Shown here piece after piece: positions 11,475 to 25,093 of a stretch of 51,085 nucleotides of DNA; the first letter of the stretch is position 1, and every line of letters begins with the position of its first letter. The notes beneath the pieces were generated by a model, which ran no database searches, was not told where the DNA came from, and saw only the letters and a list, made by a program, of their open reading frames with translations. Source of the stretch: Patescibacteria group bacterium. Its GTDB lineage: Bacteria > Patescibacteriota > Patescibacteriia > 2-12-FULL-60-25. The stretch lies in assembly GCA_029210915.1 (NCBI GenBank), contig JARGGJ010000010.1, positions 1 through 51,085 on the forward strand, in the 5' to 3' direction. The position numbers and the translations under genes were made by a program.

Positions 11475-12569
11475 TTAAGGTTGGAAAAAAGTTAGGCTGG
11501 GGGTGATTTTGTCTTTGCTTTTGTATCCGGACATGAGTACGGATCCGTTTTTGCCATAGCCTACATCGAGAATGTTGGTTTCTGAATCGGGCAAGAGTTT
11601 GGGTTTTTGATTTTGATTCCAAACTGCTAATTTTTTAGTGCTGTTTGTAAAAATCCAGGAATTGCCCGACCAAGTGATTTTGGCTTGATTTAAAAAATAT
11701 TGTGAATTAACAGGAATAAAATCGGGAATCAAATCTTTAATGTGTCCGCTTACGTTAGTAACATTTACGCCATCGGAAAGATAAGCATTGTAGATTATTT
11801 TATCAGTGTCGATATAGGCACCAAGTACAAGTATATTGGATCCGTTGGTACCAATTGTTGAATGATTGCTGATGTTGCCAAAAAGTGATGTTAGTTCTTG
11901 AAAGTTTAACCCATCAAAAAAGAAGAAACGTCGATCCATTATATCGCGCCCCATGGCAATGCTTTTGGGTCCGTTTTTTTGTTCAAAATTCAGTATCCAT
12001 CCATTTGCAACTGGTGATATGCCAATGGCGGATGTGCGCGGTTCTCTAAAACTCTCCGGAAGAGATATGACTGCGGATTCGCTGAGCGCACTATGCCAAG
12101 CGTAAAGATTTTTATCTGTAACTATGTACCAGATTCCTTGTTTGCCCGCAATTTCACCAATCCATTCGGATGCGGGGATTGTGCGAATAATTTGGCTGAC
12201 GTTGTTCCAATATTTACCATCGTAATGCATCACGATATCGGGTTTGGTTTGCCAGGTTTTTTGGTCGCCGATGATAAGCCAGCCGCTGCCGTCGGTGGCG
12301 ATTTGCCGGATATCACTCATGCCAAAGCTTTGAAGATCGGGCGTGAGGTCTAATATGCGATCGGGCATGACGTGAAAAAGTTGGTTTGGGTTGCCGGCGA
12401 GCCAATCGTTGCCGCGGCTTTTTACAAAAGAGATATAGGGAATGTTAATATGTGTATCTAAAACAGTTTCCGGGATTTGGGAGGATTTGTCTTGCCAGGA
12501 GGGTGTCGCGCGTAAACCTGAGGGAAGGCCAAGGCTAAGTAGGCAAATTAATGCGAACAATTTCTTCAT
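11475..12569 (-). CDS. Secreted beta-propeller-like protein
   Basis: 364-aa protein with a signal peptide (MKKLFALICLLSLGLPSGLRA) and repeated short motifs such as GSGWLIIGD, GIWYIVTDKNLYAW and GNSWIFTNSTKKLAVW, spaced like the blades of a beta-propeller. It resembles the N-terminal half of the 1058-aa protein at 13231-16407 (WLIVGDKKLFRL, GIWMIVTNQGNIYRW), so the two are probably paralogous modules. Probably exported to the cell surface. No enzyme motif is seen. Confidence 0.75.
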   Translation of the reverse strand: MKKLFALICLLSLGLPSGLRATPSWQDKSSQIPETVLDTHINIPYISFVKSRGNDWLAGNPNQLFHVMPDRILDLTPDLQSFGMSDIRQIATDGSGWLIIGDQKTWQTKPDIVMHYDGKYWNNVSQIIRTIPASEWIGEIAGKQGIWYIVTDKNLYAWHSALSESAVISLPESFREPRTSAIGISPVANGWILNFEQKNGPKSIAMGRDIMDRRFFFFDGLNFQELTSLFGNISNHSTIGTNGSNILVLGAYIDTDKIIYNAYLSDGVNVTNVSGHIKDLIPDFIPVNSQYFLNQAKITWSGNSWIFTNSTKKLAVWNQNQKPKLLPDSETNILDVGYGKNGSVLMSGYKSKDKITPSLTFFQP

Positions 12570-12806
12570 ATGGCAATACCTTTATATAAAGCTTAAAGTC
12601 CGTCAAGTCTGTCGAGTTGCAGTTCATAAAGTTTATAAAGTTTGTAAAGTGGTTATTATTGCACTTGATAGACTCTAAACTTTATGAACTTGATGAACTT
12701 GTTTGGTAGCACAAAACCCCGCTTGCGCGAGGCTTTATGTTTCTCTCCTGACGTTGCAAGGTTGAGGCCTTGCGGAGCCGGGATTATTTTGAGGCGAGGA
12801 GGTTTG

Positions 12807-12914
12807 ATGCATGGTTACCCAAATCGTGTAAGCGGATATGCGAGTAACACTCGAGGAGTGCACCGTACATCAAGCCCCAACGAAATATTTGGGAAAACAT
12901 ACAATTTTAAATAA
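12807..12914 (+). CDS. Possible 35-aa peptide starting MHGYP
   Basis: A 35-codon ORF preceded by GAGGAGG 4 nt before the ATG. The peptide is Gly/Ser/Tyr/Asn/Arg-rich and starts MHGYPNR. A second mini-gene, at 18790, starts MAHGYPDG, also with a Shine-Dalgarno. The shared HGYP start and strong SD are the only support, so this is a weak call. Confidence 0.35.
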   Translation: MHGYPNRVSGYASNTRGVHRTSSPNEIFGKTYNFK

Positions 12915-13116
12915 CAAATAATAAATAACAAATAATAAATTTTGTTATCGCTTCCCTCGACTTCGCTCGGGACGAGTCGCGATTTTTATCTTTATATATT
13001 TTACTACGAACTGATTTGAGGAGCAAAGAAGTTGGTTTTTTTTGTGGCGCGAAGTCTGGGGAAACGTTAGCAGGAAAATGGGGAAATGTCAAGGGTGGTG
13101 AGTGGTGTTTTGTAAC

Positions 13117-13146
13117 AAAAAACCGCTTTGTAAAGCGGTTTTTTGA
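13117..13146. terminator. Terminator of the large surface-protein gene
   Basis: AAAAAACCGCTT and AAGCGGTTTTTT form a symmetrical hairpin about 85 bp beyond the stop of the minus-strand 1058-aa gene. It is also oriented to stop plus-strand transcripts. Confidence 0.9.
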
Positions 13147-13230
13147 ATACCATGTAGTAGTATTTTGTATTTGGTATTTGGTATCTGGCAGTTAATTTTT
13201 GCTAGATATTAGATACTGGTTGCCAGATGC

Positions 13231-16200
13231 TTATTTCTTGTAGATTGTTTTGTAGCCTGTCCAGGTGCGGTTGCCTAAGTTGTCGTAGAGGTTGGCGCCG
13301 TAACTGACGGTTTCGGTATTGTATGGGCCGCCAACGTAGGAACAGGTGGATGCGCCGTTACAAGTTTTTACAACCTGGGCATTAACCAAGATTTCGATCT
13401 TGTTGATGCCATTGCTATCAGAGCCGTTGGCTGTGAAGGTAATTTGGTCGTAGTTGGTGTAACCGCTGTCGCGATTGCTTGTGATGGTTAAGTTGCCATC
13501 TACATTTGTTTGATTGTCGTTATTGTTATCACTTGTACCGGTGACGTAAACATTTTGTGATGATGTCTGTGTCATACGGCCATTGTAATCGTAAGCGCGG
13601 GCAAAGATGCTGATGTTGCGATTTGCGGAAAAGCTGTTTCCATAGATTGCAACCGAACATTCTTGGTTTCCGTATGCGCGATTATAAGTACAAGTTTTCT
13701 TTAAACCACCATCTGCGTAGATTTCGATTTTTTGTAAACCGGAATCAGCGGATGCGCCAACATTTACAGTCTTAGTTTCGTTTTGATCTAAGTTGCTATC
13801 TGATGGGTCGAGCCACATCCAAGCGTAAACTTGGGTACCGGTGTTATTGTTGTTTGAACCATTGCGGTAGAGCGACATTGTGTCGGTTACATCGGTACGG
13901 CCGGAATAATCGGTAGCTCGTGCGTAAATGTTGATTGTGGAGTTTGCGTTATAGTTGTTAGCGTAGATTGTGACCTCACAGTTTTGAGTTCCGTATGCAC
14001 GGCTGTAATTACAAGTTTTGATTAAGCTGTTATTGGCGTAGACTTCGATTTTGCTCAAACCATTATCCGCAGCAGCTTGAACTTTGATTGTTGAGCTTTC
14101 ACCATCTGAGAAATTTGTATCGGATGGTTCGAACCACATCCATGAGTTTACGTAATTACCATCGTTGTTTGATCCATCATTTTGGATGGTAAAGCTGATA
14201 GAACCGGACCAGTTCTGGTAACCATCGCGGTCGGTAGCTTTGACTTTTAACGTTACGGTTTGACCGGCATTGAAGTTGTTGCCGTAGACTGTTTTGGAAC
14301 AGGTTTTATCACCGGTTGCATCGTTAAAGTAACAAGTACCAATGATGCTGTTATTTGCGTAAAGCTCTAATTTTTCTAAACCACGGTTGGCATTACCATA
14401 GAAGGTGATGTTGCGTGATTCGTTGCGTCCAAGAGTTGTTTTGCTAACGTTGCCATCGAACCAAGCGGCCACGGAACTGTCGTAGTTGCCGTTGTTGTTA
14501 TCATCCCAGTAGCCATCTCTATAGATGTATTGCGTGCTGGTTTGGATTTGGCGGCCGTAGTTATCGTAGGCTTTTACGTAGACTTTGATTTTGTCGTAAT
14601 TGGTGTACTGATTGCTATAAATTGAGTAATTACAGTTTTGATCGCCGTAGACGGTGCTGAACGAACAACTGCGTTTTAAGCTATCGTTTACGTAGATTTC
14701 CAGTTTTTTCAAGCCATCTTGTGCATTGGCGTGAGCTTGAATTACCTTGTAATCATCGCCATACATTTGGTTGCCGGAAGGGGAGAAATCAAACCAAACT
14801 GAAAGACGGCCATCGCTGTTGTAATAGTTATTGTTATTATTATTGTAATTGTTATCGTAGTAGCCATCCACCGGAACGTAATACTCACCTAGCCATGTCC
14901 AGGCTTCTTGGCCTTTGGTGTCTACTGCGCGGGCGTTAAAGGAAACCGCGCTTCCTTTGGTGTAGGAATTGCCATAGATTGTGTAATCACAATTTGATGT
15001 GTAGCAGGTTTTTACGATGTTACCGTTCAACCAAATTTCGACACGGCTGATTCCATTTTTGGATCCGGAGTTGATTGTGATGTTGGATGACTGGCCATGG
15101 TAAAGCTCGTGATTGTTATTGCTAACACTCATGCTAGCCCAAACATCGCCGTTTGTATTTACAACCGGATTGTTATTTACATAGCCGGTGCCTTCATCAA
15201 CGCGGACAAGTTTGGCGGTGAGAGGGGAGGTTGGGTTTTGGTTACCAAGTGCGGAAACGACGCCTCCCAATAAAAATGTTCCGTTACCGTTGCCGGAGAT
15301 GGTTACAAAGTAGTCGCGGGTTTCGCCGTAATAAACAACTTGATTGTTATCCAAACGGAATAATTTTTTATCGCCAACAATCAACCATGATTTACCGTTA
15401 TGACCGATGACGGAGTTATTGATTTTAATACTACCTAACTCGTTATTTGCAGAAACGTTGGTTACAGTGTTGCCATCATATTTTTTGATGTAACCATTTT
15501 GGTAAGTGTTTAAATATACACCATGTTGGCCTGTTTGATGGTTGTAGACAAGTATAGCTTCGCTACCATTTGATGCTACTTTTACAGGCGGTGTGTAGTT
15601 GGTGTTAAATTTGTAGGTAACATCTGTAAAGTTATAGCTATTATATTGATAATAGACAGCTTTGTATTCGCTCGAGCCATTATCTACACGAGCTAAGAGC
15701 AGCCAATTGTTATTGCTTAGTGGTAAAATTTCGAGGAAGTTAGAAATATCCAAGCTGCTAATATTAGAATGATTTGCCGGCGAACCATGATTGACGTTAT
15801 AAATCAGTGAAGAATTATAAGTGTTGAATTTAAGGTTATTCTTTATTTCGCTTGGAAGAGAAAGCCTGACAAATTCATTTCCATTTTGTTTCCAGCGATA
15901 GATGTTCCCTTGGTTGGTTACAATCATCCAAATACCATCTTTTCCATTTATAGATAAGATTGCTTCATTGCTGTACATGCTGTTGCGCCAAGTGTTGGCA
16001 GGGTAACCCCAGGTGCCATCTTTGTAAGTTAAAATTTCGTAGTTGTTTGTGTTGGAAACTACGTTTTTTAGAAATATGATTGTTTGACCATCGGTGACGA
16101 TGTCGTCGACGCGGTTAAGACCTGCGTTTCTAACTTCGAGTGTGATGTCTGTCATGACTGATCCATCAGTCTTCCAGACGTGTCCGCCGGTGTAGAGCTC

Positions 16201-16407
16201 TTGGCCATCGGTAAGGTACCAATAAGGGTGCGCGAAGGCGCTGGCCCAAACCGGGCGGTTCTCGCGGGGGCTTATTTTGTCGGAAATATCCGACCACTGC
16301 CAAGGGCCGGTATCGGCGGAGGCAGCGCTAACAACCGCAACCATACCCAAGGCAAGCATTACCATGAGCGCGATCGCAGTTAACAAACGATTGTATAGAT
16401 GTGTCAT
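13231..16407 (-). CDS. Large secreted surface protein with six Ig-like repeats
   Basis: 1058 aa with a signal peptide (about 8-32, ending SAASA). The N-terminal half (35-430) has beta-propeller-like motifs shared with the protein at 11475-12569. The C-terminal part holds six repeats of about 95-100 aa. Most share the pattern W.W(F/L).PS, a central KIE(I/V)YA(N/D), a Cys pair about 12-14 residues apart (TCNYSRAYGTQNC, TCTYNRAYGNQEC), a YGN..NA segment and a final ARA.DY.GR. Asn-rich linkers join them, including a run of Tyr/Asn near residue 530. The paired cysteines suggest one disulfide per repeat, outside the cytoplasm. An adhesin or cell-wall role is plausible; no LPXTG or other anchor is seen. 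The protein is expensive for a small genome. Confidence 0.85.
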   Translation of the reverse strand: MTHLYNRLLTAIALMVMLALGMVAVVSAASADTGPWQWSDISDKISPRENRPVWASAFAHPYWYLTDGQELYTGGHVWKTDGSVMTDITLEVRNAGLNRVDDIVTDGQTIIFLKNVVSNTNNYEILTYKDGTWGYPANTWRNSMYSNEAILSINGKDGIWMIVTNQGNIYRWKQNGNEFVRLSLPSEIKNNLKFNTYNSSLIYNVNHGSPANHSNISSLDISNFLEILPLSNNNWLLLARVDNGSSEYKAVYYQYNSYNFTDVTYKFNTNYTPPVKVASNGSEAILVYNHQTGQHGVYLNTYQNGYIKKYDGNTVTNVSANNELGSIKINNSVIGHNGKSWLIVGDKKLFRLDNNQVVYYGETRDYFVTISGNGNGTFLLGGVVSALGNQNPTSPLTAKLVRVDEGTGYVNNNPVVNTNGDVWASMSVSNNNHELYHGQSSNITINSGSKNGISRVEIWLNGNIVKTCYTSNCDYTIYGNSYTKGSAVSFNARAVDTKGQEAWTWLGEYYVPVDGYYDNNYNNNNNNYYNSDGRLSVWFDFSPSGNQMYGDDYKVIQAHANAQDGLKKLEIYVNDSLKRSCSFSTVYGDQNCNYSIYSNQYTNYDKIKVYVKAYDNYGRQIQTSTQYIYRDGYWDDNNNGNYDSSVAAWFDGNVSKTTLGRNESRNITFYGNANRGLEKLELYANNSIIGTCYFNDATGDKTCSKTVYGNNFNAGQTVTLKVKATDRDGYQNWSGSISFTIQNDGSNNDGNYVNSWMWFEPSDTNFSDGESSTIKVQAAADNGLSKIEVYANNSLIKTCNYSRAYGTQNCEVTIYANNYNANSTINIYARATDYSGRTDVTDTMSLYRNGSNNNNTGTQVYAWMWLDPSDSNLDQNETKTVNVGASADSGLQKIEIYADGGLKKTCTYNRAYGNQECSVAIYGNSFSANRNISIFARAYDYNGRMTQTSSQNVYVTGTSDNNNDNQTNVDGNLTITSNRDSGYTNYDQITFTANGSDSNGINKIEILVNAQVVKTCNGASTCSYVGGPYNTETVSYGANLYDNLGNRTWTGYKTIYKK

Positions 16408-16693
16408 ATATTGGCTAAAATTAGCTTAATTTTGCAAAATTAGGTTGTGTCTCTTAGTATTTGAACACGAACTGATTAATGCGTCAATATAGCAGATTTT
16501 GGGGATTTTGTCAATGATGTGCGTTTACTATTTACTTTGCATATTATAGTAATTGATTTTAGAGGATTGACGAAATTGATTTATAAATATACCTTAGATA
16601 AGGAATTAGTATTCATCTTTAAGATGTTTGTCGATTCCCTATTAAGGGCAAAATAAGCCTTTATTAGTTCCGTACCTTCGAAAGGATGGCATA
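16408..16693 (+). promoter_or_regulatory. Leader and promoter region of the graspetide cassette
   Basis: TTGACG (16567-16572) with a TATACC 15 bp later, or TATAGT near 16548, are the best promoter candidates; neither is ideal. The precursor gene has AAAGGA (16681-16686) 7 nt before its ATG. The stretch CGTACCTTCGAAAGGA (16671-16686) nearly matches the leader of the RNA ligase gene (151-166). Its CCTT could pair with the AAGG of the Shine-Dalgarno. Confidence 0.4.
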
Positions 16694-16858
16694 ATGCAAC
16701 AAAATAATGATGATACAAAACAACAGGCTGAGATGGGAGAGGCAAGGCAAACGTCCGTTCAAGCGTTTATCCTCAAATTCACTGAGGAGCGACGTGGAGC
16801 GATCAATCCTACAACTTCGGGTACTTGGGAGTGTCCCGACGGTTCCGACTTTTCTTAA
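16694..16858 (+). CDS. Putative graspetide (omega-ester/amide RiPP) precursor peptide
   Basis: A 54-aa ORF ending 75 bp before a MvdD-like ATP-grasp ligase, with a good Shine-Dalgarno. The polar N-terminus (1-20) leads into VQAFILKFTEE (22-32), which matches the amphipathic PFFARFLE-type recognition helix of microviridin leaders. The C-terminal segment from Asn38 (NPTTSGTWECPDGSDFS) has Thr40, Thr41, Ser42, Thr44, Ser51 and Ser54 as possible hydroxyl donors and Glu46, Asp49 and Asp52 as acid partners for ring closure. There is no Lys in the core, so ester rather than amide links would be expected. One Cys (47) is unusual. Codon use is less AT-rich than the neighbours. The pairing is inferred from context and composition; it has not been shown. 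Confidence 0.75.
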   Translation: MQQNNDDTKQQAEMGEARQTSVQAFILKFTEERRGAINPTTSGTWECPDGSDFS

Positions 16859-16867
16859 GCGGTAAAA

Positions 16868-16919
16868 GCGCAAAAGTCTATTGCGCAACCCACAGGGATT
16901 CTTATCAGAATCCTTTTTT
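16868..16919 (+). terminator. Attenuator between precursor and ATP-grasp genes
   Basis: A first hairpin GCGCAA..TTGCGC (16868-16886) is followed by GGATTC-ttatca-GAATCC and six T (16896-16919), a classic intrinsic terminator. The ligase gene starts 15 bp later. Partial readthrough would give more precursor than enzyme, as is common in RiPP operons. Confidence 0.85.
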
Positions 16920-16933
16920 CATGGAGAAGAAAA

Positions 16934-17899
16934 ATGATTCTAACGATTGGCAACTCCAGTACTTACGAGTTTGAGGCATACAGTTCTGTGAAACAAGCCT
17001 TAGAGTTGAAAGGCCAGACAGCGGTGCTTTTTAGGCAAGATCTATGCCTAGAATCAGATTATTTAAGTTTTATCGTTACTGGAAACGGATGTAAGTATAA
17101 AATTGTTATAGATGGAGTGGTTTACGATTTGGATGATTTTGATGCGGTTTGGTATCTTAAACCACATTTACCGCCCGAACTCTTGGAGTATGATCCTGCT
17201 AAGCATCGTCAATTTGTTCATAGGCAATTTTTTGCTTTACGTGAGGGGCTGTGGTCATTGTGTCACGACAAAAGATGGCTCAATGATCCATGGTTGATGC
17301 ACGAAGCAGAAAATAAGTTATTGCAAATGCAAGTTGCATCAAAGGTTGGATTTGATTTACCTGACACTGTAATAACATCAGATCCCGATCAAGTAAGAAG
17401 TTTTTATAATTCTTGCGATCGGCAGATGATTGTTAAGATACTATCTTCCAGCCCGATACTTGGTAACGTAATTTATACTAATAGAGTTACCGAAGCAGAT
17501 ATCCGGCAAATTGATTCGGTGCGTTGGGCACCGGCAATTTTTCAAGAATTGGTTGCCAAGAAACATGAACTTCGGATTACGGTTGTTGATGAACAAATTT
17601 TTTCAGTAAAAATTCACTCCCAAGAGGATGAGGCGACTGCATTAGATTGGAGACGAAAACCAAAATTGAATGACTATACAGTGAAAATGGAACCTACAAC
17701 CATCCCAAAAATCATTAAGGATAAAATTAGACACTTCATGAGGTTGTTGGGCTTACGATACGGCACGATTGATATAATAGTTACTCCTGATGATAGGTAT
17801 CTTTTTTTAGAGATAAATCCCAATGGTCAATGGTATTTTGTGCAAGTTAAGACAGGCTTGCAGATCGCACATGCTATTGCGGATGTTCTTTCACCTTGA
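16934..17899 (+). CDS. MvdD-like ATP-grasp ligase, graspetide macrocyclase
   Basis: 321-aa ATP-grasp enzyme of the microviridin ligase type, which phosphorylates an acidic side chain of a precursor core and closes an ester or amide ring with Thr/Ser/Lys. The diagnostic C-terminal motif FLEINPNGQW is at 291-300; Glu and Asn there bind magnesium. MIVKILSS (about residues 164-171) carries the ATP-binding Lys, and the N-terminal part (1-120) with FDAVWYLKP matches the family's pre-ATP-grasp region. Length is normal (about 320-330 aa). It has its own Shine-Dalgarno (GGAGAAG) and follows the precursor and attenuator on the same strand. No second ligase, acetyltransferase or ABC transporter is nearby, so the pathway is minimal. 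Confidence 0.9.
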   Translation: MILTIGNSSTYEFEAYSSVKQALELKGQTAVLFRQDLCLESDYLSFIVTGNGCKYKIVIDGVVYDLDDFDAVWYLKPHLPPELLEYDPAKHRQFVHRQFFALREGLWSLCHDKRWLNDPWLMHEAENKLLQMQVASKVGFDLPDTVITSDPDQVRSFYNSCDRQMIVKILSSSPILGNVIYTNRVTEADIRQIDSVRWAPAIFQELVAKKHELRITVVDEQIFSVKIHSQEDEATALDWRRKPKLNDYTVKMEPTTIPKIIKDKIRHFMRLLGLRYGTIDIIVTPDDRYLFLEINPNGQWYFVQVKTGLQIAHAIADVLSP

Positions 17900-17911
17900 A
17901 ATTATTCTAAC

Positions 17912-17937
17912 GCCCGTTGACATACTGGGCCTTTTTT
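17912..17937 (+). terminator. Weak terminator after the ATP-grasp gene
   Basis: GCCC (17912-17915) and GGGC (17927-17930) close an 11-nt loop, followed by a T-run. The stem is short. Confidence 0.5.
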
Positions 17938-17982
17938 AATTATAGTCAGGAAAGTATTAAATAAATAAAATTTGATTCTAAT

Positions 17983-18456
17983 ATGCAAAATTTTGATTTT
18001 TTAAAAAAATTGATTAAAGATATGTTAAAGGTTGATCAGGGTTTACGCATGTATCCGAATACCAATGAAATATTACCAGTAAACGAACAAGGCTTAACTT
18101 TGAGTAACTATTCCATTTACTTGGCAGATGCTTGTCATAATTATAGAATTCATAGGTTGATTGAAGATTTTGGATATCCTAAACAAGAGACTGTTGGGCC
18201 AGAGGTGATGAAAGATTTTTGGTTACTGGTTCAACACCAAGATTACGATTTAAAGTTACAACAGAATTGTTTAGAAAATTGTGATTTTGAGCCATCACAA
18301 AAAGCTTATTTGATAGATAGAACTCGTATGCAGCAAGGCTTACCTCAGATATATGGCACTCAATATATAATGATTAATGGAGAAAGAAAATTATATAAAG
18401 TTGAAGACCCTGATAATCTTGCTGTACGTAAAAAAGAGGTGGGGATTGAAGATTAA
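17983..18456 (+). CDS. DUF6624-domain protein
   Basis: 157-aa soluble protein with the marks of DUF6624: an N-terminal DQGLR, IHRLIEDFGYP, a central WLLVQHQDYD, AYLIDRTRM and the terminal PQIYGTQY with a DPDNLAVRKKEVGI end. The biochemical role of the family is not established. It lies 83 bp past the ATP-grasp gene on the same strand but after a terminator, so joint work with the graspetide genes is possible and unproven. The region is AT-rich and no Shine-Dalgarno is visible. Confidence 0.75.
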   Translation: MQNFDFLKKLIKDMLKVDQGLRMYPNTNEILPVNEQGLTLSNYSIYLADACHNYRIHRLIEDFGYPKQETVGPEVMKDFWLLVQHQDYDLKLQQNCLENCDFEPSQKAYLIDRTRMQQGLPQIYGTQYIMINGERKLYKVEDPDNLAVRKKEVGIED

Positions 18457-18789
18457 TTTTTTTTAGAAGTATAAAAGATAGATTTTGTTATTAATAATAG
18501 TTTAATTAACAGGAAAACTCTTGAGAGGACACATAAGATTATTGCTATAACATTTTTACTCTCGCTTATATTAATGAAGTCTTCTAATTAAAATTATACT
18601 TAAGTCTCCCAATCCGACGCGTGGCGTCGAATGTCCCTCTTTGCTAAAGAGGGTAGACGGAGGCGGAGTTATAAACGTGAATAAATCAATATGTAGAAGA
18701 TTATCATACCTGTATTTCATTCTTTTGATATGAAAATTGGTTTGTTATTTACTTATTGAGTCCTGACATACATGTTAAGGATGTTTATC
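18457..18789. other. AT-rich intergenic region with one composite palindrome
   Basis: Holds a composite repeat at about 18602-18665: TCTCCCAA, a small palindrome CCGACGCGTGGCGTCG, TGTCCCTCTTTGCTAAAGAG and GGTAGACGGAGG. The same parts lie next to the DUF559 gene at 20113-20172. No gene is seen. Confidence 0.8.
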
Positions 18790-18941
18790 ATGGCGCATGG
18801 ATACCCGGACGGTAAGTATCGTGGCGGCAAGAAGGATCGCAAGAGCTGACCGGGCAAGAACTTTCAACATGGTTACGGAGGTCACCACTCACAAAATCCA
18901 AGGGCAATCCCAAGTCCAAGGGCGGAAGCGGGAAATGGTAA
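18790..18941 (+). pseudogene. Broken Gly/Lys/His-rich mini-gene starting MAHGYPDG
   Basis: The ATG has AAGGATG 8 nt upstream. The first 19 codons read MAHGYPDGKYRGGKKDRKS, then TGA. In the same frame translation would resume PGKNFQHGYGGHHS, and after a shift at about 18890-18895 it continues KSKGNPKSKGGSGKW to a TAA at 18939-18941. The parts match in composition and repeat the HGY motif, which suggests a former gene of about 50 codons broken by one stop (TGG to TGA would fit) and one frameshift. Its GC-richer codons contrast with the AT-rich DNA around it. The 19-aa form could also be the real product. Confidence 0.5.
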
Positions 18942-18962
18942 CCCGCAACTGATCGACTCACA

Positions 18963-18991
18963 CCCTCTTGTTCATAGAGGGCTTTCTATTT
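18963..18991 (+). terminator. Terminator after the HGYP mini-gene
   Basis: CCCTCT-tgttcat-AGAGGG followed by CTTTCTATTT. It separates the mini-gene transcript from the M16 gene at 19020. Confidence 0.8.
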
Positions 18992-19019
18992 ATGTAAAAA
19001 TGCTGTATTTTTTATATAT

Positions 19020-20111
19020 ATGATTAACCACATTAAAAATGGATGGAAAAATAATTGTGGATTTATACTTACATTTAGTAATGGAAGTTTTTTTGAGTCG
19101 TCAAAGACAAATGGTTTTACGCATATTGCAGAACATTTGATGTTTAGTGGAACAAAAAATATTCCCAAAATAGAATTGGATAAAATATTTGTAAATACAT
19201 TGCATGATTTGGAAGCTGTTACATCAAGGGAAGCGCTTTCTGTTTTTTGTTATTTTAACTTGAATGATTTTGAAATTGCAGTAAAAACAATTTATGATTT
19301 TATTTACAACTGGGAATGTACAGCTGATCAATTTAAAGATGAAAAATCGCAATTAGTTGATGAGTCACAAGAATATTTTTCATCTTTTGATTATAAAAAA
19401 AGAAAATATGTTTACCCGTCCTTGCCAATACACCAATCTGAACCTTTGGGGTCACTTAAATTATTAAAATCTTTAAAATTTGATGATGTAAAAGCCATAA
19501 AAAGTTATTGGAATGTTTTTGTAAAAAAATCGAATATTGATATTATTGTAATGACGGGGAATATCTCCAATAATCAAAAGAAACTTGTTAATAAATTATT
19601 TGCTAAAATACAAAATAAAACAGTTTATGATAAAGCGAAAAAATCGGTATCAGGAAAAATAGAATTAAAAAGGTCCGGAGGATTTTATTTTAGTGGAAAT
19701 GGATATAATCCAAAATCATTATTGTTAAATGAAATTTACAAGAATCGCTGGATGTTTGAGGATAAATTTGATTTTGATTATGATTTTGTCCAAATTGATA
19801 ATGTAACCGCTTTCTTTGTTTTTCATATTAAGGAAAATATAGATGGGGATTTATTAAAAGAATTTTTTTACAAAATTATTACAAAATCTGAATTTGATAC
19901 TGCTAAAAAAAGTTTTTTGAAGAAATTTAACGAACGTATAGATTCTGTAAATATTGTTGATAGCTTGAGGTGGTTTGCCGGTTTTCAGAGTCGTAATTAT
20001 TTGGAAATAGAAGGTATTAAAGATAACCCTGAGAAACTTTATAGATATTTTGAAAAAATAGATTATAAAGAAATGCTGAATTTTGCTAAGAGTATACAAA
20101 AATGTAATTAA
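19020..20111 (+). CDS. M16 (insulinase/pitrilysin)-like zinc peptidase
   Basis: 363 aa. The inverted zinc motif HIAEH is at residues 35-39, within GFTHIAEHLMFSGTKN, which matches the family's G.aH..EH..F.GT signature. A downstream KDEKSQLVDES block fits the region of the third (Glu) ligand, so the active site looks intact. At 363 aa it is one M16 unit, shorter than the usual 400-450, with a shortened first strand. M16 enzymes degrade or mature peptides, including in PQQ and some RiPP pathways. It lies on the same strand as the graspetide genes, 1.1 kb downstream, and directly after the HGYP mini-gene. Low GC and many Lys/Asn/Ile codons. No signal peptide. Confidence 0.85.
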   Translation: MINHIKNGWKNNCGFILTFSNGSFFESSKTNGFTHIAEHLMFSGTKNIPKIELDKIFVNTLHDLEAVTSREALSVFCYFNLNDFEIAVKTIYDFIYNWECTADQFKDEKSQLVDESQEYFSSFDYKKRKYVYPSLPIHQSEPLGSLKLLKSLKFDDVKAIKSYWNVFVKKSNIDIIVMTGNISNNQKKLVNKLFAKIQNKTVYDKAKKSVSGKIELKRSGGFYFSGNGYNPKSLLLNEIYKNRWMFEDKFDFDYDFVQIDNVTAFFVFHIKENIDGDLLKEFFYKIITKSEFDTAKKSFLKKFNERIDSVNIVDSLRWFAGFQSRNYLEIEGIKDNPEKLYRYFEKIDYKEMLNFAKSIQKCN

Positions 20112-20112
20112 A

Positions 20113-20172
20113 GAATTTCCCAAATTGCGCTTTGCGCAATTGTCCCTCTTTGCTAAAGAGGGTAGACGGAGG
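20113..20172. repeat. Composite palindrome, left flank of the DUF559 gene
   Basis: TTTCCCAA, a small palindrome ATTGCGCTTTGCGCAAT, then TGTCCCTCTTTGCTAAAGAG and GGTAGACGGAGG. It matches the copy at 18602-18665 except for the small palindrome, which differs. Its reading frame runs open into the DUF559 gene. Confidence 0.85.
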
Positions 20173-20199
20173 TGTGATAAAATATTTGGTCTGGGGAAA

Positions 20200-20571
20200 A
20201 TGATATGTAACGGGCGGCATATTCCTTATGATCAAGATCTTAAGGAGTTGTCTCAGCAATTGAGGAACAATGCTACACCGCAGGAAAAGAAATTGTGGTA
20301 TCAGTTTTTGAAATTTCAAAAATTACATTTTTATCGTCAAAAACCGTTGGACGGATATATCGTCGATTTTTATTGTCCGAAGTTGAAATTGGTAATTGAA
20401 ATAGACGGAGTTCAGCATTTAGAGGAGGGAAGTGTGGAATATGATAATGAGAGAACCTTAGTACTTGCTAACTACGGCTTACAGGTAATTCGTTTCACGA
20501 ATTACCAAATCGATTTCGAATTCGACTCCGTCTGCACTAAAATCACCAGGTTTTTACAATACCCTCTTTAA
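20200..20571 (+). CDS. DUF559 (Vsr/PD-(D/E)xK-like) endonuclease
   Basis: 123 aa with the full DUF559 signature: LKELSQQLRNNATPQEKKLW, FYRQKPLDGYIVDFYCP, KLVIEIDGVQH and VIRFTNYQI. VDFYCP..LKLVIEIDG holds the PD-(D/E)xK-type catalytic residues of very-short-patch-repair-like nucleases. The ATG at 20200 is preferred, because the open frame further upstream is encoded by the flanking palindromic repeat. The C-terminal codons and stop at 20571 lie inside the right-hand repeat. The gene is therefore framed on both sides by the same repeat family, a configuration also common for DUF559 genes in other bacteria. The biological role of the family is not settled. Confidence 0.9.
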   Translation: MICNGRHIPYDQDLKELSQQLRNNATPQEKKLWYQFLKFQKLHFYRQKPLDGYIVDFYCPKLKLVIEIDGVQHLEEGSVEYDNERTLVLANYGLQVIRFTNYQIDFEFDSVCTKITRFLQYPL

Positions 20572-20670
20572 TAAAGAGGGATATCAACACAAAGTGTTGA
20601 TTGGGAGATTTCCGAAACCCTCTTTAATAAAGAGGGATATCAACACAAAGTGTTGATTGGGAGATTTCAG
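20558..20670. repeat. Two tandem composite palindromes, right flank of DUF559 gene
   Basis: Two direct copies (about 20560-20609 and 20617-20668), each with CCCTCTTTAATAAAGAGGG, a small palindrome ATCAACACAAAGTGTTGAT and TGGGAGATTT, joined by CCGAAA. They are inverted relative to the left flank, so the DUF559 gene sits between inverted elements. The right copy runs up to the 3' end of the next gene. Confidence 0.9.
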
Positions 20671-21698
20671 TTTAAGTTGAGTTGGGAGATTTGTATCGCA
20701 GAGATCCACTCACTAACCTTCGCTGGATTACAAAGAATTGTATTTGGTGGCGCAGTTTCGCTTAGTGCGCCTCCGGTGGATGCGATGATGGGTTTGTTAA
20801 AATGATGCGCTTCATGAAGAGGTAAACCAAAACCTTCGTACCAGGAGGGGTAGAGTAGAACTGATGAGTTTTGATAGAGCCAAGATAATTCTTCGTCGCT
20901 GATAAAGCCCGGAGCCTCTACGTAGGAAATGTTGTGTTCGCCAAAGTTAAATTTAACTTTGCCTCCGAGGATTACCGGAGTTAGATAGTTTTGCGGATTT
21001 TTAACGTTAAATTCGGCGATAGCTTTTAATGCGGTTTTTATGTTTTTGCGGGGGTCGGAGCCGCCTAGCATTAGAGCTATGCGGGTTGCTGTGGGGGGGA
21101 GCCAAGCAGGGCGAACTACGAGCATCGAACTACGAACCTCGATTTTAGGATCGAACAAGAAAGTGTGACACTTGGTATCTAGAGCATCTAATAGTTTGAT
21201 TACATCGGATTTGGTTTGGTTGCTGACGTAGTGGATTTGGTCGGCGTTTTTTATGCGACGGTCAGCTTTAACATATTTGTGCCAGAGGCGACGGCGGAAG
21301 TTGAACCATCTGGGTTCGATTAAGAAGGAGAGATCATGGACCAGGATGTGATAGTGGCGATAAATGGCGCCGGTGTAGGCGATGTTGGGGAGGAGGAATA
21401 GGTCAATTGGGTTTTTAAGTTTTTTTTCGGCGCTTAGAATCAAAGAAAAAAGATTCAGATGGCAAAAAAGAGTCCAGAGTTTGTTGGGGACTTTAATGTG
21501 TAGATAGTTGAAGTTATTTTCATCGCAAAAACGTTTAACTTCGGTTGATGCTTTTAAGCCGGTTGTGACACAGGTGCAATCTTGTGACTGAAAGTTTTTG
21601 GTTTGATCTAAAATCCAAAGCCGAGCTACTCGGTTTATACCTCCACAGTGGCTATCGGCGACAGCGCGGGCATCAATTAAGATACGGGGCATAGGCAT
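20667..21698 (-). CDS. GT4-like glycosyltransferase
   Basis: 343-aa protein of the GT-B fold, GT4 type: an N-terminal half with HCGGINR, and a C-terminal Rossmann half with MLGGSDPRKN, PGFISDEELSWLYQNSSVLLYPSWYEGFGLPLHEA and the nucleotide-sugar ExxGxxxxE-type motif there. Probably adds a sugar to a cell-surface glycan. A stretch at residues 186-199 (EVRSSMLVVRPAW), just before the second domain, is encoded by a TCGAAC-type intergenic repeat kept in frame. Its start overlaps the end of the upstream glycosyltransferase by 26 bp, which implies coupled expression. Confidence 0.85.
   Translation of the reverse strand: MPMPRILIDARAVADSHCGGINRVARLWILDQTKNFQSQDCTCVTTGLKASTEVKRFCDENNFNYLHIKVPNKLWTLFCHLNLFSLILSAEKKLKNPIDLFLLPNIAYTGAIYRHYHILVHDLSFLIEPRWFNFRRRLWHKYVKADRRIKNADQIHYVSNQTKSDVIKLLDALDTKCHTFLFDPKIEVRSSMLVVRPAWLPPTATRIALMLGGSDPRKNIKTALKAIAEFNVKNPQNYLTPVILGGKVKFNFGEHNISYVEAPGFISDEELSWLYQNSSVLLYPSWYEGFGLPLHEAHHFNKPIIASTGGALSETAPPNTILCNPAKVSEWISAIQISQLNLN
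21104..21146 (-). repeat. TTCGAGGTTCG-type repeat inside the glycosyltransferase
   Basis: The plus strand reads GGCGAACTACGAGCATCGAA then CTACGAACCTCGAT, the same family as the intergenic repeat at 9857-9895. The insert is in frame and lies in the linker between the two GT-B domains. Confidence 0.65.
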
Positions 21699-22863
21699 CT
21701 TCTATCAAAGCGAGTTCTTCCTCGATAGGATCTTCCAACTTTAAACCGGCAGCTATGGCTTGGAGGAGTTTTTTTTCAAAATTTTCGTGGCTGAAACTTT
21801 CGGCGAAATTGCGGATTTCTTTGGGGTTATAATCTGCGGTTTTATGACGGATGATGGCGTCGCCGATATCCTCCCAAGTTTGATGCTCGATAAATTTGCC
21901 GGTTTTATTTGGCAGAACGGTTTCTGCGGCTCCGCCGACTCCGTAGGCAATAACCGGGCGGCCGGCGGCCATCGCTTCAACGGCGGTGATGCCAAAGTCT
22001 TCGATTTGGGGATTTATGAAACCTTTTGCTCGGCGATAGAGGCGGGATTTTTCTTCGTCGTTTATGGCACCGACGAATTTGGTTTTTTTACCGGCCATCT
22101 TTTTAAGTTTGCTGAGCTCGGGACCGGTGCCAAAGATTATCAGTGGAATGTTGAGTTTGGAAAAAGCTTTTACAACCAAATCGAAACGTTTGTACGCAAC
22201 AAGGCGGCCTCCGGCTAACCAGTAATCACCTTCGTGGCGAGAGAAGGGGATGTGTTCCGTATCGACAGGCGGGTGAATTACTTGAGCGTCGCGATTGTAG
22301 TAGCGCATGATACGGCGCCGGCTGGTTTGGGAGTTGGTTATCATTGTGTCGGCGCGTTCGGAGGCTTGTTTGTCCCAACTGCGCATGCGATGCAAAAGCC
22401 AGGGGAGACCGGCGCGGATAAAAGCGGGGTGAGGGAGATCGGCTAAGTAATTGATGCGGTTTTCCCAGAGGAAGCGTGTGGGAGTGTGTAGATAGCAGAT
22501 GTGTTTTGCATGCGCGGGGACGATAATCCCTTTGGCGAATGAGCTGGAAGATGAAATTACCAGGTCGTAATTGGAAAAATCCAAGTGCTCTGTCGCGAGA
22601 GGCATGAATGGCAAATACCACTGATAGTATCTTTTAGCAAATGGCCATTTTTGCAAAAAGGAAGTATGGATTTTTTTATCATTAAAATCTTTATGCGATT
22701 TTTTGGGATTGTAGATGAGAACATGGGCATCCGCATTTGGGAAGATTTTGTTAAATGCAGAGAAGACTCTTTCGGCTCCGCCATCTTGCACCAGGTAATC
22801 ATGAACAAGGGCGATTCTAAGGTCGCTTAATTTTTCTTTGATATTTTGTGTCACATCTGCCAT
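21673..22863 (-). CDS. GT4 glycosyltransferase
   Basis: 396 aa with a typical GT4 layout: IALVHDYLVQDGGAERVF at the N-terminus (acceptor domain, glycine loop), then GGRLVAYKRFDLVVKAF, LIIFGTGPEL and EDFGITAVEAMAAGRPVIAYG holding the catalytic Ex7E motif. The N-terminal motif is shared by mannosyltransferases of O-antigen and exopolysaccharide clusters. First gene of a two-gene minus-strand unit with 20667-21698. The donor and acceptor are not readable from sequence. Confidence 0.92.
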   Translation of the reverse strand: MADVTQNIKEKLSDLRIALVHDYLVQDGGAERVFSAFNKIFPNADAHVLIYNPKKSHKDFNDKKIHTSFLQKWPFAKRYYQWYLPFMPLATEHLDFSNYDLVISSSSSFAKGIIVPAHAKHICYLHTPTRFLWENRINYLADLPHPAFIRAGLPWLLHRMRSWDKQASERADTMITNSQTSRRRIMRYYNRDAQVIHPPVDTEHIPFSRHEGDYWLAGGRLVAYKRFDLVVKAFSKLNIPLIIFGTGPELSKLKKMAGKKTKFVGAINDEEKSRLYRRAKGFINPQIEDFGITAVEAMAAGRPVIAYGVGGAAETVLPNKTGKFIEHQTWEDIGDAIIRHKTADYNPKEIRNFAESFSHENFEKKLLQAIAAGLKLEDPIEEELALIEDAYAPYLN

Positions 22864-23155
22864 TTGCTTAGCTTAAATGATGCGCAACAAAAAGTGGACA
22901 GATAGTCAAGAACCATTGTCTTGAACCTTGATTCGCTTGATTAAAGGATTAGCATGATTATTATATTGTCTGAACCTTGATTCACGGGATTATCGCTCAA
23001 ATTTTCTTGATTACTACATGTAGAGTTTCGTCATATAAAATTCCATCGAAATCGATGGAATTGTTTGTATATAATCATAATCAAGTTAATCGGAATAATC
23101 GTGCGAATCAAGGTTCAAGACAAAAAAATCGCATATAGCGGTGGGAAGGAAACAT
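22864..23155. repeat. GAACCTTGATTCGC repeat region
   Basis: Copies of TTGAACCTTGATTCGC (near 22920 and 22973) and their inverse GAATCAAGGTTCAAGACA (23105-23122) enclose a hairpin AATTCCATCG..CGATGGAATT followed by GTTTGTATAT. Closely related to 23551-23668. No gene is seen. Confidence 0.8.
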
Positions 23156-23476
23156 CTACTTTTTGGATTTCGAAGCAACGACCAGATGATTGGCGAATTT
23201 AGAGAGAAGGTCTTCTAGTGCTGAACACATACCTTCTGTAGATGAAAGAAGAAGAAGAGCTTCCCAACAAGCACCAGCGTCATCGATGACGTCCAGCGGA
23301 TTGCCCTCTTTGTAATTTTTTGGATCCTGGAATGGAATTTCAACAAAAAGCATCAATTCACCCGCAGATTCTCCCATCTCTTTCTCGTACTCCTCCCTGG
23401 TTATACTTCCAAGTAAATTGACTGTGAGCTCGCCGTTGTAATTATGAACAGCGACTTTGAAAGGACTTGTGACCAT
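23156..23476 (-). CDS. 106-aa protein of unknown function
   Basis: Small soluble acidic protein (MVTSPFKVAVHNYNG...) with no recognised domain. It has a strong Shine-Dalgarno (GGGGAGAG) and a good promoter upstream, and is bracketed by two inverted copies of a long repeat, so it could be a cassette. Codon use is less AT-rich than in the glycan genes beside it. Confidence 0.6.
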   Translation of the reverse strand: MVTSPFKVAVHNYNGELTVNLLGSITREEYEKEMGESAGELMLFVEIPFQDPKNYKEGNPLDVIDDAGACWEALLLLSSTEGMCSALEDLLSKFANHLVVASKSKK

Positions 23477-23509
23477 CTTGATCTCTCCCCGTGAAAAGGT
23501 TGCGTGATT

Positions 23510-23538
23510 TTAGTATCATGAAAAAAGATTAATGTCAA
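23510..23538 (-). promoter_or_regulatory. Promoter of the 106-aa gene
   Basis: On the minus strand TTGACA (23533-23538) and TACTAA (23510-23515) are 17 bp apart, giving a leader of about 25-30 nt that includes the Shine-Dalgarno. Confidence 0.7.
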
Positions 23539-23550
23539 CACGGTGTACAG

Positions 23551-23668
23551 TTAAAATCCCACCGACTTCGGTGGGATTGTTTGTATATGATGATAATCAA
23601 GTTTCAGCCAGAGGTTGATCCGCCTATGGTGGAAATCGGATTAATCGCGTGAATCAAGGTTCAGACAA
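23551..23668. repeat. Hairpin plus GAATCAAGGTTCAGACA repeat with nested insert
   Basis: AATCCCACCGACTTCGGTGG hairpin, GTTTGTATATGATGATAATC, then GAATCAAGGTTCAGACA. Against the copy at 23036-23125 it has an extra block near 23600-23635 resembling the GCCAGAGGCGGATCCGCC palindrome family. The initial hairpin with its T-rich tail may also stop transcription. Confidence 0.8.
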
Positions 23669-25093
23669 TCAATACGCTCCTGTCTTCTGTATCACTGCAA
23701 ATGGCGTCTTTAATAGAATATAGAGATCAAGTAGTGGCGACCAGTTTTCGATGTACCAGATATCGAGACGAGCTTCTTCTTCCCAGGTGAGATCGGAGCG
23801 ACCGCTGATTTGAGCCAGGCCGGTTACCCCGGGTTTGATTGTGAGTACACGGCGTTCTTCGTCGGAGTATTTTTCGACTTCGCGGGGTTGGTGAGGGCGA
23901 GGGCCAACAAGCGACATATCGCCGTTTAGGACGCTGATAAAGTTGGGGAATTCGTCGATAGACCATCTTCGTAAGAAATGACCGGTTTTCATGATGCGCG
24001 GGTCGTTTGCGATTTTGTAGATAGCTCCTTTTTTGATGCTGTTTTCTTTGATGAGTTTTTGTTCGAGCTCGAGATTCTTTTTGGCATCTTTAAATTGGGG
24101 GCCGATGGAATATTTTTTAAACATACTGCGGAGTTTGTAGGTAACAAAAGGCCGGCCTTTTTCTCCGATGCGTTCGCTTTTATAAATGATGGGGAAGCCA
24201 TCTTCCAAAAGAACGAGGATGGATCCGATAATCCAGAGAGGGGAGCTGATGATTAGAATGATGATAGAAAAGAGAATGTCTTCGACGCGTTTGGCTATAC
24301 GACCCCAGCCATCTAAGGGCGTTGGTTTAACTTCGATAAGCGGGATTCCGCCCGGGGTGCTGATTGCGATGTTGGTGAAGCGCGCGGCAAAAACATCGGC
24401 TGCGTACCAAAAATGGAGGTGATGTTTATTGGCGAAGCCTATGATGTGCAATGAATCTGTTTTTGGCATATCCGGGTCGGCTAACACTATGCCCGAGATT
24501 TGGCCTTTTTCGATCATCCTTTTTAGTGTTTGCTTGGAATCGTTGCCCCATTTGTTAATTTGTTTAAGTACGGAAAAGCCGAGGATGGGAAGGTTGGTAA
24601 AAGTTTCGGTGAGTTTATCGGCCATTTCACTTTTGCCGATTACTACAATATTATCGTGGCCGATTTTCATTCTTAAAAGTTGATGTTGTATTGTGCGGAG
24701 TGCCAAACGACCAAAGAAAACGAAAAAGACGGAAAGGCCCCAGATGGCGATGATGATAAAGCGGGATTGTGTGAGTTCGCGGCGGAAAAAGATGGAAGCG
24801 ATGAGGATCATTACACCTGCGGTACAGGCAAGAATTATACGGCCAAACTCATCCCAAGCTTTGCGCTGGCGGGCGGAGTAGAGGCCGGCGATGATGAATA
24901 CCAAGATGTAGATGGCTATAAAAGTTAACGATGTTTGGATGTAGGTGGCGGGAGCGATGTCTTGCAAGATTGGGCGGATTTCCGTGGCGAACCTTGAGTA
25001 ACGAAGCAGATACGCAAAAGCCGCGGCACAAGCAAGAGCGGCAGTATCGACAGGCAGGCGCAGAGCGGTAAAGGTTAGCTGGAATTTGTTCAT
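23669..25093 (-). CDS. Polyprenyl-phosphate sugar-1-phosphate transferase (WcaJ/WbaP type)
   Basis: 474-aa initiating enzyme of surface glycan synthesis, moving a sugar-1-phosphate from UDP-sugar to undecaprenyl phosphate. It has four to five N-terminal TM helices (about 10-130), a CoA-binding-like domain (140-250), one more TM (about 275-295) and the C-terminal bacterial sugar transferase domain with YKLRSM, LRRWSIDEFPNF, GDMSLVGPRP and KPGVTGLAQISGR. All catalytic blocks are present. It heads the minus-strand glycan region shared with two glycosyltransferases. Confidence 0.95.
   Translation of the reverse strand: MNKFQLTFTALRLPVDTAALACAAAFAYLLRYSRFATEIRPILQDIAPATYIQTSLTFIAIYILVFIIAGLYSARQRKAWDEFGRIILACTAGVMILIASIFFRRELTQSRFIIIAIWGLSVFFVFFGRLALRTIQHQLLRMKIGHDNIVVIGKSEMADKLTETFTNLPILGFSVLKQINKWGNDSKQTLKRMIEKGQISGIVLADPDMPKTDSLHIIGFANKHHLHFWYAADVFAARFTNIAISTPGGIPLIEVKPTPLDGWGRIAKRVEDILFSIIILIISSPLWIIGSILVLLEDGFPIIYKSERIGEKGRPFVTYKLRSMFKKYSIGPQFKDAKKNLELEQKLIKENSIKKGAIYKIANDPRIMKTGHFLRRWSIDEFPNFISVLNGDMSLVGPRPHQPREVEKYSDEERRVLTIKPGVTGLAQISGRSDLTWEEEARLDIWYIENWSPLLDLYILLKTPFAVIQKTGAY

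Follow-up and report, generated by a model that had tools for sequence, protein, structure and literature searches.

Very few secreted molecules are known from CPR bacteria, which themselves rank among the most poorly understood bacteria. Among described graspetides, plesiocin (PsnA/PsnB) has neighbouring Thr-Thr residues as donors, with two acceptors in each unit. Graspetide synthetases phosphorylate Asp or Glu residues, which are then attacked by Thr, Ser or Lys, as set out in the portion of Carter 2026 drawn on here (PMC13097080). Fuscimiditide (ThfA/ThfB) carries nested Thr-to-Asp esters with TxxxT and DxxxD spacing (PMC12291112). Closest in host range are the graspetide loci reported from two CPR branches in a dataset dating from March 2016, in which a short precursor gene lies beside an ATP-grasp ligase gene (Makarova 2022, PMC8939145). 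The excerpts of that paper used here give a leader motif, Phhx(1,2)h, and a core signature, TxxxTx(6-10)Dx(1-4)D, found in most, not all, branch 1 precursors, and describe nearby metallopeptidases as well as uncharacterised proteins ('cluster 23') in which His and Arg are conserved. In the portion of Carter 2026 drawn on here, groups 27 and 42 have many candidate-phylum members, and DUF6624 occurs at high frequency in group 42 (PMC13097080).

A locus of this kind lies in the window, i.e., the whole stretch of 51,085 nucleotides analysed here, from a Patescibacteria group bacterium. Judging from sequence comparison, we estimate a probability of about 85% that it is a graspetide biosynthetic cassette, with a short ORF as the leader-core precursor. 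Its features are:

16680..16688, + strand, Shine-Dalgarno-like purine run preceding the precursor start (letters read directly)
16694..16858, + strand, putative graspetide precursor, 54 aa, leader with AFILKFTEE, core TTSGTWECPDGSDFS (ORF and ten-locus alignment)
16894..16915, + strand, predicted hairpin with T-run, attenuator/terminator-like, between precursor and ligase (fold prediction)
16934..17899, + strand, predicted graspetide synthetase (ATP-grasp ligase), 321 aa (NCBIfam, PDB 5ig8 and predicted-structure matches)
17983..18456, + strand, DUF6624 protein, 157 aa (PF20329, 32.1 bits, cut-off 27)
19020..20111, + strand, M16-family metallopeptidase with HxxEH, candidate leader peptidase (PF00675, E 1e-14)

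An earlier sequence-only reading of this DNA had proposed that a CPR-like genome carries a graspetide-type pair of precursor and ligase, naming the 54-aa ORF with its Shine-Dalgarno, FILKF segment and Thr/Ser/Glu/Asp-rich tail, the hairpin with T-run and the FLEINPNGQW ligase. All of these were found where it had placed them, and the proposed pair is upheld by the ligase family matches and by its retention in related genomes. Its description of the cassette as minimal was too narrow, as the DUF6624 and M16 peptidase genes continue it and DUF6624 or metallopeptidase genes recur near the relatives. Its suggestion of a new class loses force, since the published excerpts used here already describe CPR graspetides (PMC8939145) and DUF6624-associated candidate-phylum groups (PMC13097080).

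The cassette is best counted with the CPR graspetides already reported, sharing with the loci excerpted from Makarova 2022 the CPR hosts, a precursor beside an ATP-grasp ligase, a related core signature and nearby metallopeptidases. The branch 1 precursor clusters of that excerpt have no identifiable mutual similarity, whereas the ten precursors compared here align throughout. The window's core does not follow the branch 1 signature, reading TxxxTx4Dx2D with no later Asp; three related loci (L011, L012 and L014) fit it. The candidate-phylum host and DUF6624 neighbour agree with group 42 as it appears in the portion of Carter 2026 drawn on here, features that are necessary but not sufficient for membership.

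Microviridin MdnA with MdnB/MdnC has a homologous ligase (28–29% identity in the structural match) and a hydrophobic leader helix, but the locus described here has one ligase rather than two, no Lys, no lactam and another core. The label 'microviridin-type' given in the sequence-only reading therefore suits the leader logic and the enzyme family, and not the core; that reading had itself pointed out that the core has no Lys and departs from the microviridin T.K.PSD..E pattern, and Lys, PSD and the TxKxPSD pattern are absent from all ten cores. The nested TxxxT/DxxxD rings of fuscimiditide are a known parallel, although the core here is shorter and spaced DxxD, and no methyltransferase or aspartimide enzyme like those of fuscimiditide was seen at the cassette. 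PsnB of plesiocin is matched by fold, but here the core is single, the acceptors would be Asp and the ligase is more distant.

Close relatives of the ligase (47–60% identity) were found at nine more loci, in eight CPR MAGs and one phage genome. The ten ligases group in one fully supported clade (100/100), the branch of which is 1.84 changes per column long, and family-profile scores exceed 500 bits for the whole-genome members and are about 215 bits for the next homologues. The window's own genome (1.46 Mb, 98% complete) has a single ligase copy, and no ligase was found in eight other genomes of its genus. A short ORF lies directly upstream of the ligase in all ten loci. The sequence-only reading had staked its case on the 54-aa ORF being conserved beside ligase homologues, and it is kept in the nine other loci. 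On the alignments, the precursor/ligase pair is genuine, and it is kept in distantly related CPR bacteria as well as on one phage.

The precursor ORF starts with ATG, ends with TAA and is preceded by the Shine-Dalgarno-like run AAAGGATGG; it has AFILKF as its leader segment and TTSGTWECPDGSDFS as its tail. The general plan of the ten precursors is PFILLFLE, a few residues, and then TTSGT-x4-D-x2-D close to the C terminus. F25, L27, T40, G43, D49 and D52 are invariant, and position 41 is Thr or Ser throughout, while Thr44 is replaced by Ala in L010 and by His in L044. The leader reads PFIL or PFVL in the other nine loci and AFIL in the window, and because of this Ala for Pro the literal Phh motif is missed. 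Thus the window has a short precursor beside the ligase with the conserved leader helix motif (Ala at the Pro position), and the core has conserved Thr/Ser residues as candidate donors (T40, T/S41) and Asp residues as candidate acceptors (D49, D52).

The ligase carries FLEINPNGQW and keeps all 34 invariant columns of a 14-row alignment, including the E.NP.GQW motif. It is matched over most of its length, at 207–213 bits, by NCBIfam TIGR04185/04187/04184 (the peptide-maturase MvdC, SAV_5884 and MvdD models), and by MdnB (PDB 5ig8) at an E-value of 5e-45. It belongs to the graspetide-synthetase family of ATP-grasp ligases, with NCBIfam scores that stay below each named subfamily's trusted cut-off. 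A read-through model of precursor fused to ligase gave low confidence for the precursor part (pLDDT 32–53) and no confident docking; it was built from a ligase-only alignment, as precursors added to the alignment came out misplaced.

Each of the ten loci has a strong predicted hairpin in the spacer between precursor and ligase (z −2.3 to −4.7), although the spacer sequences are unrelated. For nine of the ten, folding is better than in 93% or more of the windows of equal length taken from their own locus, while the spacer of the window studied here is only within the best 13%. A T-run follows the hairpin in some loci only, so 'attenuator' is an interpretive label. Positions 12000–24000 of the window gave no Rfam match to a known RNA element, and the hairpin is therefore treated as terminator-like.

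In six of the ten loci, a DUF6624 gene lies directly downstream of the ligase gene. A sample of 381 genomes of the class has the ligase in 12 (a count that takes in distant graspetide-type ligases), DUF6624 in 18 and both in six, against 0.57 expected (Fisher p 3.6e-6, which is approximate because the genomes are related and not independent). DUF6624 is probably a pathway partner of the cassette. Its AF2 model is all-helical (pLDDT 92), and H85, D112, R113, Q122 and G125 are invariant across 22 CPR members. A Foldseek search of PDB and BFVD for fold relatives gave nothing below E 0.47, and VIA-align Z-scores of up to 7.0 are within background for helical proteins; the lack of a solved match is not by itself evidence for a new fold.

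DUF6624 is present also in genomes without a detected ligase (L076 and L100). The solo copy at L100 (5605–6090), from genome G004 of the same genus, is 57% identical to that of the window and sits between a methyltransferase-like gene and a ribosomal-protein-like gene; no ligase was found in G004. At L070 (1417–3381), the neighbours of DUF6624 are an HExxH metalloprotein and a cysteine-rich ORF similar to the C-terminal portion of a radical-SAM/SPASM maturase, with no ATP-grasp ligase in the fetched stretch, and this is perhaps another CPR RiPP locus. The DUF6624 slot directly downstream of the ligase is filled in L010 (2625–3050) and L055 (288–710) by a family of 141–142 aa without a Pfam match, the pair being 51% identical; profile comparison of the 142-aa ORF of L010 with DUF6624 revealed no link.

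The M16 gene starts 563 nt after DUF6624 in the window and 23 nt after it in L011, the only two of the ten loci in which one was seen. Related HExxH proteins are encoded near the cassette in L010, L012 and L015, and an HEIIH protein in L055. Leader removal by M16B peptidases has precedent in class III lanthipeptides (PMC8960859). No C39 peptidase was found in the window's own 98%-complete genome, which fits a leader peptidase of another kind, and no exporter is visible within the operon. The shared DUF6624 and metallopeptidase neighbours are concrete candidates for the tailoring and leader-removal steps.

On the favoured reading, the short ORF is translated into a precursor made up of leader and core, and the leader's amphipathic FILKF/PFILLF helix would dock on the ATP-grasp ligase. 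The ligase would phosphorylate core Asp side chains, and attack by Thr/Ser hydroxyls would yield omega-ester macrolactones. With two invariant Asp and no core Lys, two omega-esters are the simplest reading, and we infer two rings that would link Asp49 and Asp52 to Thr40 and Thr/Ser41 (Thr44 being an alternative where it occurs), with a predicted loss of 36 Da; the assignment of donors is unsure because of the Ala and His found at position 44. The intergenic hairpin probably serves to hold precursor levels above those of the enzyme, DUF6624 would be an accessory enzyme or a partner, and a metallopeptidase, M16 here and HExxH types in sister loci, may remove the leader. The compact, conserved precursor/ligase pair is of a size that allows synthesis and co-expression, making the role of a CPR graspetide directly testable.

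The ligase could instead add amino acids to the peptide or otherwise ligate it, in the manner of RimK or a peptide aminoacyl ligase, with no esters formed. The ATP-grasp fold is common to RimK, Pfam RimK matches with an E-value of 9e-9, and the PHROG match of the ligase is named ribosomal S6 glutaminyl transferase. Yet the 32 best PDB chains for the predicted ligase model are all graspetide synthetases (AMdnB, CdnC, MdnC, MdnB, PruB and PsnB), with RimK ranking only after them; the NCBIfam rimK_fam model scores 62 bits on the window ligase against 213 for the peptide-maturase models; and the invariants of the core are Thr and Asp, as cross-linking needs. RimK-like ligation is accordingly improbable. 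Even less credible is a chance origin of the 54-aa ORF, with something else as the substrate of the ligase, a view that its short length and deviating leader might encourage. Orthologous ORFs occupy the same place in nine other loci, and mismatches by codon position in the ten-locus set (0.35/0.30/0.63) indicate that purifying selection acts on the precursor protein. A regular expression for the precursor, run over 557 kb of fetched sequence in which cassette loci are over-represented, matched at known sites only; being derived from the same sequences, it checks for strays and is not a means of discovery. A chance ORF was rejected on these codon-position mismatches and the lack of stray matches.

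The same enzyme superfamily and a similar leader logic (PFFARFL versus PFILLFL) might suggest a true microviridin with a lactam, but its likelihood is negligible: microviridin proper was rejected on the core sequences described above, and without a core Lys a lactam is excluded. The cassette might also be a mobile gene set in decay or of recent arrival, the product of which is no longer made here. The lack of a detected ligase in the other genomes of the genus, the solo DUF6624 in G004, repeat elements around the downstream gap and the loss of the leader Pro would all agree with this, but every ORF is intact, the invariant ligase columns are complete and the core Thr and Asp are kept, so that decay is unlikely.

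The graspetide cassette favoured here is not confined to bacterial genomes. The same precursor-ligase cassette is carried by IMGVR_UViG_3300029811_000049 (L044, L102 and L103), an IMG/VR phage genome of 38.5 kb that has a terminal direct repeat of 59 nt and clear genes for terminase, portal, capsid (major head) and tail. The phage ligase shares 83% identity with the ligase of a Parcubacteria MAG, and a shortened ORF that is DUF6624-like, or derived from DUF6624, is also present. A terminase search for the phage host across 287 genomes of the phylum gave no match and is uninformative. The copy on the phage suggests one way in which the cassette may spread, gives a clue to its function and, with the patchy distribution, fits a role for the product in interaction or competition. 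A bolder and rather doubtful proposal is that a graspetide lineage specific to CPR bacteria is exchanged between these hosts and their phages, with the peptide serving phage/host competition (e.g., superinfection exclusion) and DUF6624 being a new kind of tailoring enzyme with a helical fold unseen in solved structures. A defence system was also considered, and was set aside as there was no PADLOC match.

Several other sequence elements lie around the cassette. An imperfect palindrome of 32 nt (CCCTCTTTGCTAAAGAGGG) occurs in identical copies at 18632–18663 and 20141–20172, flanking the M16 gene, and a tandem 56-nt pair at 20553–20664, beside the same gene, contains a palindrome similar to CCCTCTTTGCTAAAGAGGG. 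The stretch at 18790–18940 is G+C-richer and single copy in the genome; it reads MAHGYPDGKYRGGKKDRKS and then stops, while a Gly/Lys-rich reading goes on in another frame. Divergent from the cassette, positions 13231–16407 (− strand) encode a secreted-looking protein of 1058 aa with repeated Big_7 immunoglobulin-like domains.
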